From Deltaproteobacteria bacterium (GTDB lineage: Bacteria > Desulfobacterota > Syntrophobacteria > Syntrophobacterales > Thermodesulforhabdaceae), in assembly GCA_019309115.1 (NCBI GenBank), contig JAFDGW010000021.1, positions 1-41,805 of the forward strand: a stretch of 41,805 nucleotides of DNA, read 5' to 3'. Under the pieces are notes generated by a model. It was not told the DNA's origin, did no database searches, and saw only the letters and a list, made by a program, of their open reading frames with translations. Shown one piece after another: positions 33,714 through 36,653 of this stretch; the first letter of the stretch is position 1, and each line of letters begins with the position of its first letter. The translations under genes and the position numbers were made by a program.

Positions 33714-34844
33714 TCAATTAAACAAACCGGCAAAGTAATCTATTGCAGCTCTGATTTCCTCCTCAGTCGTAAACCTACCAAGGGATAGTCGAATTGTGCC
33801 CAATGCAACTCCCGGACTCACGCCCATTGCTTCCAGTACATGCGAGATTTTCGGTTCATTACCGTGACAAGCCGCTCCAGCAGATGCTGCAATGCGGTTT
33901 TGCATCTTACCAAGCAATTCCGCAGACGACATGCCGGGAAAACCTATGCTTAGTGTATTGGGAAGCCTTGGGGCACCCTTGCCGTGAACCACTGCATTCG
34001 GAGTTGAAGCCAGAATGCCTTCCTCCAACATGTTTCTCAGCTTCTCAAGTCGAGCAATTTCCTCCCCAACCGTTTTAGATGCCATCTCGGCCGCCTCACC
34101 AAGGGCTACAATTTGTGCAACCGGCTCTGTACCAGGCCGTACGCCCCGTTCCTGTCCCGCGCCGAAAATTACTCTTTTGATAGGCGTATCTCTTTTCACA
34201 TAAAGAGCACCTATGCCTTTTGGCGCATAAGTCTTATGACCGGCGATACTTAGGAGATCGACCCCGAGTTCCCTTACATTTACTTCTATCTTTCCAAAAC
34301 TTTGGGCTGCATCGGAATGAAATATTACGCCTTTCGCCCTGGTAATTGTGGCGATTTCCTTAATGGGTTGAATAACCCCGGTTTCGTTATTTGCGTGCAT
34401 CACCGATACCAGTATGGTGTCGGGTCTGATTAACCTTTCAATCTCGCCTACATCAACTAATCCGTTTTTATCAACCGGCAGAAAGGTGACATCAAAACCT
34501 CGATGGATAAGTTCTACCATTGGTTCGATGACGGCCGGATGCTCAATCTTGGATGTTATGATGTGTCGTCCTTGATCCTTTAGAGCTTCAGCAACGCCAA
34601 ATATCGCTAGGTTGTTTGATTCCGTTCCACCACTGGTAAATATAATTTCTTCTGGAAAACAACCTATTGCGTTTGCCACTTTCTTGCGAGCTTCTTCAAC
34701 GGCTTTTTTTGCATCGCTTCCGTATGGATGGCTACATGACGGATTCCCGAACTTCTCTCGCAAGTAAGGAAGCATGACGTCAAGTACGGCAGGATCCACA
34801 GGCGTGGTTGCGTTGTAGTCAAGATAGATAAGAGATTCACTCAT
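33714..34844 (-). CDS. nifS/iscS: Cysteine desulfurase, NifS/IscS type
   Basis: Removes sulfur from cysteine for Fe-S cluster and thio-cofactor assembly. 376 residues. PLP Lys204 in SIAGHKTYAPKGIGALYVK, HANNETGVIQPI, SDAAQSFGKI, and the catalytic loop SAGAACHGNEPKISH with Cys326, as in group I enzymes. ATG at 34844 follows GAGGAGATAGAAAT. No iscU or nifU gene adjoins, so the sulfur acceptor is not shown here. It is 90 nt after the antiporter gene on the same strand and could share its riboswitch-controlled transcript, as no terminator was seen between. Confidence 0.94.
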   Translation of the reverse strand: MSESLIYLDYNATTPVDPAVLDVMLPYLREKFGNPSCSHPYGSDAKKAVEEARKKVANAIGCFPEEIIFTSGGTESNNLAIFGVAEALKDQGRHIITSKIEHPAVIEPMVELIHRGFDVTFLPVDKNGLVDVGEIERLIRPDTILVSVMHANNETGVIQPIKEIATITRAKGVIFHSDAAQSFGKIEVNVRELGVDLLSIAGHKTYAPKGIGALYVKRDTPIKRVIFGAGQERGVRPGTEPVAQIVALGEAAEMASKTVGEEIARLEKLRNMLEEGILASTPNAVVHGKGAPRLPNTLSIGFPGMSSAELLGKMQNRIAASAGAACHGNEPKISHVLEAMGVSPGVALGTIRLSLGRFTTEEEIRAAIDYFAGLFN

Positions 34845-34934: not shown

Positions 34935-36398
34935 TTACCAGTCATAAAGTATTTCCCAGTGCGTTTCGAAAGGTGGAGACGATGGGGTGTATCTATAGTC
35001 CATTGTTCTTCCCTTTCCCGGTTCTTTAGAGGGGTCTTCCCTCCAAAACCTGAGATAGATTGCTGGAATGAGCCGACCATTCTCGCGAATCCAGGTTTCC
35101 TTCTCTTCTATGACCTTCCATACTGTATTAAAGCGCTTGCTTCTCACCCGCTCACCGACATGAGGAAGTCCGAGCTTTTCCCTAAGTTCTCTAAACCTGT
35201 AAACAGCCCGTTTCTCTCCGTAATCGAGAATCCTTTCACCCAGAACCATGATGCCTATAGCACCCAGCGGTGCCGTGAGCAGAATAGAAAGCACGGCAAT
35301 AGCCAAAATAACCTCGCCGGACTGTACTCCAGCCTCAAGGGGAACCGCACCTATCGCAGCCTGAACCGTAGCCTTTGGAATGTAGGCCACTACACAAAAA
35401 AGCCGTTCTTTCCAGTTCAGGTCGGTTCCTAAGACACATAGATAGGTGCCAACACTTCTGAAAATAAGACCGACCCCGATGACCGCCGCTCCGGCAAGTC
35501 CAGCCTTCCACGCAACATGTATATTCACCTGAGCACCAACGAGCACAAACAGCAACAGTTCGGCAAAAACCCAGAGTTTTTTCAGCTTTTGGGAAATGAC
35601 GTGAGCAATGGGTTCTGCTTTATCAAGGATGACAAAGCCAATGGTCATTACTCCGAGCAGGCTGGCAAAGTGAATTCCAAAATTTTTAGCTTCCTCTTCA
35701 AACCACGTAAGAAGAATGGCAATGCCTATCACGATGAGGGTTCTCTTTGGGGGCCTCCAGTCGTACTTCGCAAATATCTTGTAAAGAAAGTAGCCTGGAA
35801 TTGCTCCAGCAATAATTCCAAGAATGATAGATATGGGCACTTCTGCAAGCTTTGCAGCGATGTTTACCTTGCCCTGGGTGTACATGCCCAGGAAAATTGT
35901 GAAAATTACGATAACGAAGACGTCGTCAATTGAGGAAGCAGCCAGTACAAGGGTGGGAATGCCCTTTTTTGCCCCCCTGCCACGATCCATAAAATCAATC
36001 ATCAGTGGAACGACAACGGCGGGAGACACAGCCCCGAGAATGGAGCCGAGTATTGCCGCATCAAGCCGGGATATGTGCAACCACTTGGGAGCAACCAGAA
36101 CAACACCTATTATTTCAAAAATTGCCGGAACGGCTGACATAAGAAGCGCTGGGCGTCCTACCTTGAAGAGGGTATCTCGATGTAATTCAAAGCCTGCCCT
36201 GAGCAAAATCACAATAAGGGCGATCTTTCTGAAATCGGCAGAAACATGCATCATTTCGGGTCGCATTATGCCGAGCACATAAGGGCCGACCAGGATACCG
36301 ACTATCAGCATTCCCACGAGGCCGGGAAGCTTCATTTTTCGGAACATATAATCGGCAAGCAGCCCTAGTATGACGATTACAGCTAAGCTGAACGCCAT
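34935..36398 (-). CDS. Cation:proton antiporter, CPA2 family
   Basis: 487 residues from ATG at 36398, which is preceded by GGAAGGAGGG; the frame runs back to 36434 into the terminator without a ribosome site. About twelve hydrophobic segments follow (LAVIVILGLLADYMF, LVGMLIVGILVGPYVLG, IALIVILLRAGFEL). The ion-binding pair is present in AASSIDDVFVIVIF (Asp-Asp, the electrogenic type), and the discontinuous-helix feature GAVSPAVVVPLMIDF precedes it. A soluble tail of about 80 residues (RFRELREKLGLPHVGE to HWEILYDW) ends the protein. It exchanges Na+ or K+ for protons in the inner membrane. A fluoride riboswitch and antitermination hairpins precede it, so expression should rise with fluoride. 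Confidence 0.9.
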   Translation of the reverse strand: MAFSLAVIVILGLLADYMFRKMKLPGLVGMLIVGILVGPYVLGIMRPEMMHVSADFRKIALIVILLRAGFELHRDTLFKVGRPALLMSAVPAIFEIIGVVLVAPKWLHISRLDAAILGSILGAVSPAVVVPLMIDFMDRGRGAKKGIPTLVLAASSIDDVFVIVIFTIFLGMYTQGKVNIAAKLAEVPISIILGIIAGAIPGYFLYKIFAKYDWRPPKRTLIVIGIAILLTWFEEEAKNFGIHFASLLGVMTIGFVILDKAEPIAHVISQKLKKLWVFAELLLFVLVGAQVNIHVAWKAGLAGAAVIGVGLIFRSVGTYLCVLGTDLNWKERLFCVVAYIPKATVQAAIGAVPLEAGVQSGEVILAIAVLSILLTAPLGAIGIMVLGERILDYGEKRAVYRFRELREKLGLPHVGERVRSKRFNTVWKVIEEKETWIRENGRLIPAIYLRFWREDPSKEPGKGRTMDYRYTPSSPPFETHWEILYDW

Positions 36399-36432
36399 TA
36401 GCACCCTCCTTCCCGATAATGTTTTAAAAAAC

Positions 36433-36464
36433 AAAAAACCCCGCTTCTTTAATCCGAAGCGGGG
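36433..36464 (-). terminator. Terminator arm of the fluoride riboswitch expression platform
   Basis: On the - strand CCCCGCTTC (36464-36456) pairs with GAAGCGGGG (36447-36439) through an 8-nt loop and is followed by TTTTTT (36438-36433). It ends transcription about 35 nt before the antiporter start. Its 5' arm can pair instead with GAGGCGGGG at 36513-36505, forming the antiterminator. Confidence 0.92.
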
Positions 36465-36494
36465 CGCTGAATCTAGCTGTACAAATCTACCACC

Positions 36495-36543
36495 CTGATG
36501 ACTTCCCCGCCTCGGTAGTTCAAGGCGGCACAGAAGTCATCAG
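36495..36543 (-). promoter_or_regulatory. Riboswitch expression platform: aptamer-competing hairpin and antiterminator strand
   Basis: CTGATGACTTC (36543-36533), which includes the pseudoknot strand of the aptamer, is the exact complement of GAAGTCATCAG (36505-36495). Inside it CCGCCT (36528-36523) pairs with AGGCGG (36512-36507). This long hairpin hides GAGGCGGGG (36513-36505), which otherwise pairs 9 bp with the terminator's 5' arm CCCCGCTTC. So the aptamer fold and this hairpin are mutually exclusive. Confidence 0.8.
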
Positions 36544-36590
36544 CCTGACATGTTTAAGTCATCAGGCATTTCGGGCAGACTTCATTGCCC
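36533..36590 (-). promoter_or_regulatory. Fluoride riboswitch (crcB motif) aptamer
   Basis: On the - strand the aptamer reads GGGC-A-AUGAAGUCU-GCCC-GAAAU, then a stem GCCUGA/UCAGGC, then UGAUGACUUC. This matches the crystallised Thermotoga petrophila fluoride aptamer position for position: P1 GGGC/GCCC (36590-36587 with 36576-36573), AUGA in the P1 loop, P2 (36567-36562 with 36548-36543, 13-nt loop), the invariant UGAUG after P2, and the pseudoknot GAAGUC (36583-36578) with GACUUC (36538-36533). The P2 loop is longer than in Thermotoga. It binds F- through Mg2+ ions. The 377-nt gap 36399-36775 holds only this leader, its promoter and the terminator. Confidence 0.93.
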
Positions 36591-36624
36591 TAAAGATTCC
36601 AAAGAACTCTCCTACGACTTTCCG

Positions 36625-36653
36625 CAAGTAACAAAATTCACAACTCCTGTCAA
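36625..36653 (-). promoter_or_regulatory. Promoter of the fluoride-controlled antiporter
   Basis: On the - strand a perfect TTGACA (36653-36648), a 17-nt spacer and TACTTG (36630-36625), a poor -10. Transcription would start near 36618, about 28 nt before the aptamer, giving a leader of about 220 nt before the antiporter ATG. Confidence 0.5.

Follow-up and report, generated by a model that had tools for sequence, protein, structure and literature searches.

In the window, by which we mean the whole 41,805-nt stretch of DNA analysed (Deltaproteobacteria bacterium; Desulfobacterota, Thermodesulforhabdaceae; GCA_019309115.1, contig JAFDGW010000021.1, positions 1-41,805), a fluoride riboswitch of the ON type probably drives an operon for an NHA2-type antiporter, as part of a fluoride-tolerance module of the Desulfobacterota. 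The module itself is likely; the roles given below for its proteins are proposed ones. Riboswitch leader, antiporter gene and a nifS-like neighbour all lie on the minus strand. The source genome is 96% complete, and the survey described below covered 395 genomes of this phylum.

We propose the following mechanism. Without fluoride, GAAGUCAUCAG would capture the 3′ strand of the aptamer pseudoknot in a long hairpin, the 5′ arm of the terminator would stay mostly free and transcription would end near 36433. With fluoride, the pseudoknot would retain its strand and GAAGU..GGGUG would be released; the released segments, perhaps also GAGGCGGGG, would hold the terminator 5′ arm during polymerase passage, so that the gene is read. 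The riboswitch would in this way switch the downstream operon ON at the transcription level. The product would be an NHA2-type electrogenic cation (probably Na+)/H+ antiporter that restores ion and pH balance once HF has entered. Two further components of the module would be a dynamin-like GTPase and an SH3-like domain of small size, which occurs either as part of the antiporter or as a separate protein.

Aptamer and expression platform of the leader

The leader contains the following elements.

36524..36598, minus strand: fluoride riboswitch aptamer RF01734 (Rfam, 39.8 bits; pairing over 59 relatives)
36590-36587/36576-36573 (P1), 36583-36578/36538-36533 (pseudoknot) and 36566-36562/36548-36544 (P3), minus strand: aptamer helices
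36495..36543, minus strand: anti-aptamer hairpin (MFE and pair probabilities; shuffled-spacer test)
36543-36533 with 36505-36495, minus strand: outer stem of the anti-aptamer hairpin, 11 bp, CUGAUGACUUC with GAAGUCAUCAG
36528-36521/36514-36507, minus strand: inner hairpin, 8 bp, CCGCCUUG/CGAGGCGG
36505..36513, minus strand: originally predicted antiterminator strand GAGGCGGGG (complementarity above chance; low probability in the ligand-bound model)
36491..36505, minus strand: alternative antiterminator strand, GAAGU (36505-36501) plus GGGUG (36495-36491), from constrained prefix folds
36432..36465, minus strand: intrinsic terminator, 10-bp stem at 36465-36438, arms GCCCCGCUUC..GAAGCGGGGU, T tract

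The original prediction placed a crcB-motif aptamer at 36590-36533 of the minus strand. When the RF01734 covariance search was run, the model matched 36598-36524 of that strand over its full length (model positions 1-64) and scored 39.8 bits, where gathering requires 34 (E=1e-7); this was the single Rfam match above gathering in the window; the predicted coordinates and pairings proved right to within a few bases. The pseudoknot helix, GAAGUC/GACUUC in the window, is 99.7% paired across 59 related aptamers, with changes on both sides at four of its six pairs. For P1, P3 and the pseudoknot together, 96.4% of cells are paired and double changes occur at 11 of 14 pairs, while sliding the partner, our control for covariation, gives at most three double-change pairs. 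The leader is predicted to bind fluoride. P3 copies the pseudoknot strand (CCUGAUGACUU, 36566-36556, and CUGAUGACUUC, 36543-36533), so that the anti-aptamer strand AAGUCAUCAGG can pair over 11 bp with either copy; the close relative G002 has no such repeat.

The fold of the whole leader (-73 kcal/mol, z -5.7 versus shuffles) contains P3, an 11+8-bp hairpin, the 10-bp terminator and then the T tract. The segment CUGAUGACUUC, which includes the pseudoknot strand, is the perfect complement of GAAGUCAUCAG (36505-36495), and none of 200 shuffled spacers gave an anti-aptamer duplex energy as good (z -5.5). This bears out the proposal that the aptamer and a competing long hairpin have the pseudoknot strand in common; the hairpin is present but, at 11+8 bp, slightly longer than the 17 bp first given. 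The intrinsic terminator, also foreseen, was found at 36465-36438 with its T tract. In the unconstrained fold, the anti-aptamer stem has a probability of 0.92 and the terminator one of 0.99.

When the aptamer was imposed, the freed GAAGU and GGGUG bound the terminator 5′ arm before the 3′ arm exists. Sequestration of this arm rose from 0.42 to 0.88 in the window leader (shuffled spacers, +0.03±0.17) and from 0.46 to 0.68 over 27 related leaders (shuffled-spacer change, -0.02), the Wilcoxon values for the latter, 5e-6 and 7e-8, being drawn from relatives that are not independent. In equilibrium folds of the window leader, the terminator forms both with and without the aptamer; since it wins in both states, switching must be kinetic. 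The pseudoknot and its Mg2+/F- site lie beyond what nearest-neighbour models can score. In four relatives (G005, G007, G009 and G019) the pseudoknot strand is itself a terminator arm, and the terminator probability drops from ~1 to ~0 with the aptamer. The alternative pairings computed for the window, the 27 leaders, these four relatives and G002 (see below) thus support the ON direction by anatomy. The general logic of the original prediction, OFF without F- and ON with it, is supported, and the modelled leader is likely an ON switch.

The precise antiterminator fared differently. As originally envisaged, a 17-bp hairpin hides GAGGCGGGG without fluoride, and fluoride frees this strand (36513-36505) for a 9-bp antiterminator with CCCCGCUUC (36464-36456). 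Complementarity between spacer and terminator 5′ arm does exceed chance, with 2 of 200 shuffled spacers reaching as good a duplex energy (z -3.1). G002 retains the equivalent pairing, AAGCGGGG:CCCCGCUU; there, imposing the aptamer lowers the terminator probability from 0.94 to 0.04, and an antiterminator of this type would suffice. In the window leader, however, the inner hairpin CCGCCUUG/CGAGGCGG persists in the relevant prefixes and keeps GAGGCGG paired, and GAGGCGGGG:CCCCGCUUC reaches a probability of 0.04-0.14 with the aptamer imposed, because the 8-bp inner hairpin is independent of the pseudoknot strand. This low probability led us to reject the 9-bp pairing as the main ON state, and we consider the mechanism in exactly that form doubtful. 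A degenerate, inactive riboswitch is very unlikely: the window aptamer scores below most of its relatives and has a long P3 with a second copy of UGAUGACUU, but the score exceeds gathering, every column invariant among the 59 relatives is kept and the expression platform appears intact. We favour an ON switch in which GAAGU..GGGUG would occupy the terminator arm.

The antiporter, its C-terminal domain and the nifS-like neighbour

Three features lie downstream of the leader.

34935..36398, minus strand: gene for an NHA2 (SLC9B)-like CPA2 cation/proton antiporter, 487 aa (PF00999; start ATG preceded by GGAAGGAGG)
34938..35213, minus strand: its C-terminal helix plus small beta-barrel domain, ~92 residues (~396-487) (AlphaFold2 pLDDT 91; standalone relatives)
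33714..34844, minus strand: gene for a nifS-like cysteine desulfurase, next after the antiporter gene

The antiporter matches PF00999 (1.6e-45) as its sole Pfam family, with no match to PF02537 or PF00654, in agreement with the expectation that the regulated gene is neither crcB/Fluc nor CLC-F. The closest solved structure by sequence is human NHA2/SLC9B2 (5e-44; the next, 2.6e-8), and the structural model aligns with NhaP1 at Z 44.8 and with NHA2 at Z 40.7 and 32% identity. The predicted Asp-Asp pair of this 487-residue CPA2 transporter corresponds to D158-D159 and, like K342, is invariant in 72 orthologues. Together, the relatedness to NHA2 and these residues make cation/proton exchange the likely chemistry, so that the gene product likely exchanges a cation, probably Na+, for H+; the motif offers no support for fluoride transport. 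About 40 of 80 antiporter orthologues are without a riboswitch in the DNA examined, some of them because the contig ends there.

A soluble tail of 80 residues had been noted at the C-terminus. The tail is present, measures ~92 residues and is an independent domain, a point missed in the original prediction. The same domain also exists as a standalone protein of ~95 aa, and it is present in 43 of the 395 genomes. At E<=0.001 it matched no Pfam or NCBIfam family and, by fold, gave no Foldseek match; a search on plasmids likewise found none. It weakly resembles SH3-like/KOW barrels, with VIA Z values of at most 6.7 that lie in the range of common arrangements, and with these Foldseek and VIA results the assignment of a known fold was dropped.

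The nifS-like gene follows after a gap of 90 bp in which no terminator was found, and is possibly cotranscribed with the antiporter gene. This adjacency is kept in G002 and G003, which belong to the same family, and among the relatives examined it is confined to same-family genomes.

Recurrence under fluoride riboswitches and the known exporters

The same genome carries a second riboswitch-led locus; the original prediction had missed this riboswitch, as well as the dynamin-like partner and the absence of CrcB.

G000:C58:34880-34959 (L004:6881-6960): second fluoride riboswitch, 46.1 bits
L004:7102-8868: gene for a dynamin-like GTPase, 589 aa, behind the second riboswitch (PF00350)

The GTPase matches Dynamin_N (PF00350) with 90.8 bits against a cut-off of 27 (1.3e-25), and an inositol-monophosphatase-like gene comes after it. 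The leader of the second riboswitch has an anti-aptamer hairpin, GATGACTTC/GAAGTCATC, laid out as in the window leader (z -5.3), and two successive terminators. Metal-fluoride complexes are established phosphate mimics in GTPases. The dynamin-like protein may be a target of fluoride that the cell overproduces, or else a membrane-remodelling factor; the analogy is with enolase, which fluoride inhibits and whose expression is raised (PMC11139923, PMC9646797).

We computed co-location and co-regulation across the phylum. Tail-bearing antiporters occur in riboswitch-led runs in 25 of 30 cases, 23 directly behind a fluoride riboswitch and two behind a riboswitch-led GTPase gene. The lone domain does so in 20 of 28: six have the riboswitch directly in front, 12 come after a GTPase gene that is itself riboswitch-led, and the other two follow a tandem copy or the antiporter. 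Among 53 strong matches to the GTPase alignment, 39 lie directly behind (within 450 nt) a fluoride riboswitch. In a control of 21 genomes, riboswitch-led runs hold all 12 tail-bearing antiporter genes versus 4 of 39 other PF00999 genes. The first gene behind 69 near-relative fluoride riboswitches encodes the GTPase (24), the antiporter (10), crcB (6), enolase (4) or the lone domain (3). The co-location recurs over 13 families. At one locus (L137 433-6427) three fluoride riboswitches in a row precede the GTPase, a tail-bearing antiporter and the lone domain; at two others (L202 and L203 2447-6416) a pair of divergent riboswitches leads to the GTPase and domain in one direction and to the antiporter in the opposite one.

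A second, tail-less PF00999 type of ~400 aa was also seen behind fluoride riboswitches (G001, G004, G012; L081:4135-5331, L112:4032-5429). Six further riboswitch-near genes in relatives (L117:3981-5177, L091:4408-5934, L115:2752-4320, L094:6358-8007, L096:4321-5268, L110:5956-7341) are a cyclopropane synthetase-like gene, three with MutS domain V, an NADH dehydrogenase subunit 1-like gene and one for a universal stress protein.

The source genome has no match to PF02537 (CrcB/Fluc), and its single CLC is ClcA-like (1.5e-41 versus 8.6e-9 for CLC-F), so that the idea of a CLC-F hidden in that genome was rejected, none being recognisable there. In the other tail-antiporter genomes searched, CLC frames are at least 559 aa, except cut or split ones, and differ from the 421-aa CLC-F of 6d0j, as judged by frame length alone. 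CrcB was found in 2 of 30 tail-antiporter genomes versus 174 of 365 others (Fisher 4e-6), an exclusion that persists within families in shuffles of the genomes listed (p ~0.01), with ancestry partly corrected.

All of these exporter results in the source genome and the CrcB counts would suit a tail-bearing antiporter that itself exports fluoride, as F- or together with a cation, in place of Fluc and CLC-F. We nevertheless hold this to be very unlikely, as all 72 orthologues keep the Asp-Asp pair and the Lys in the region of the cation site, which is what cation/proton exchange predicts, and no CPA protein is known to us to move fluoride. It is also unlikely, if marginally less so, that an ordinary stress antiporter has come by chance to lie behind a fluoride riboswitch, with GTPase and domain as chance neighbours; antiporters are indeed a known class of fluoride-riboswitch genes, but co-location over 13 families, including the L137 triple and the divergent L202/L203 pairs, argues against it. 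A wider proposal, which we offer tentatively, is that this antiporter and its SH3-like domain, together with the GTPase and the standalone domain, make up a fluoride-tolerance system that replaces Fluc/CLC-F in part of the Desulfobacterota, through ion and pH balance plus membrane remodelling or as a new type of exporter. The reading that we prefer remains a fluoride ON riboswitch driving a cation/proton antiporter operon within a tolerance module.

Relation to known systems

The fluoride riboswitch of the B. cereus crcB leader is reported to be under kinetic control (PMC8752731). Like that leader and RF01734, the window leader has an aptamer with P1, P3 and a pseudoknot and would turn ON by preventing an intrinsic terminator. 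Unlike the B. cereus leader, it has a separate anti-aptamer hairpin between the aptamer and the terminator, which leaves the antiterminator role to the freed strand, and its larger P3 contains a repeat of UGAUGACUU. According to a review (PMC11139923, citing Baker et al. 2012), only exporter genes are more common behind fluoride riboswitches than those of Na+/H+ antiporters, and the antiporters are assigned a role in pH balance; since this association is already known, a riboswitch with a Na+/H+ antiporter is not novel. The window gene resembles the antiporters of Baker et al. 2012, as that review presents them, in lying behind a fluoride riboswitch, and differs from them as so described in being NHA2-like, in its extra C-terminal domain and in its link to a dynamin-like GTPase.

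With the Na+(Li+)/H+ exchanger NHA2/SLC9B2, the window antiporter has in common ~30% identity over the membrane domain, the fold (Z ~40) and the PKATVQAAIG and DD motifs; unlike NHA2, it is bacterial, is without the N-terminal extension, has an added SH3-like C-terminal domain and is predicted to be fluoride-regulated. Like bacterial dynamin-like proteins (PF00350; DynA, LeoA, CrfC), the partner GTPase contains Dynamin_N, but its scores fall far short of the cut-offs that NCBIfam sets for the named families, and its gene lies behind fluoride riboswitches. Among the papers searched, none paired a fluoride riboswitch with a dynamin. What appears to be new is the Desulfobacterota context, in which fluoride riboswitches recur in front of the domain-bearing antiporter, the lone domain and a dynamin-like GTPase.

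Fluoride riboswitches earlier pointed to the fluoride-tolerance genes Fluc and CLC-F. Here they repeatedly mark two kinds of gene, one for a dynamin-like GTPase and one for the small domain without a family name, neither of which is described in this role in the papers searched. The domain-carrying antiporter sits in genomes that are mostly without the known channel, which would mean either survival without export or an unrecognised exporter; culturable species such as Desulfacinum make either possibility accessible to testing. The link to dynamin may point to a cellular target of fluoride.
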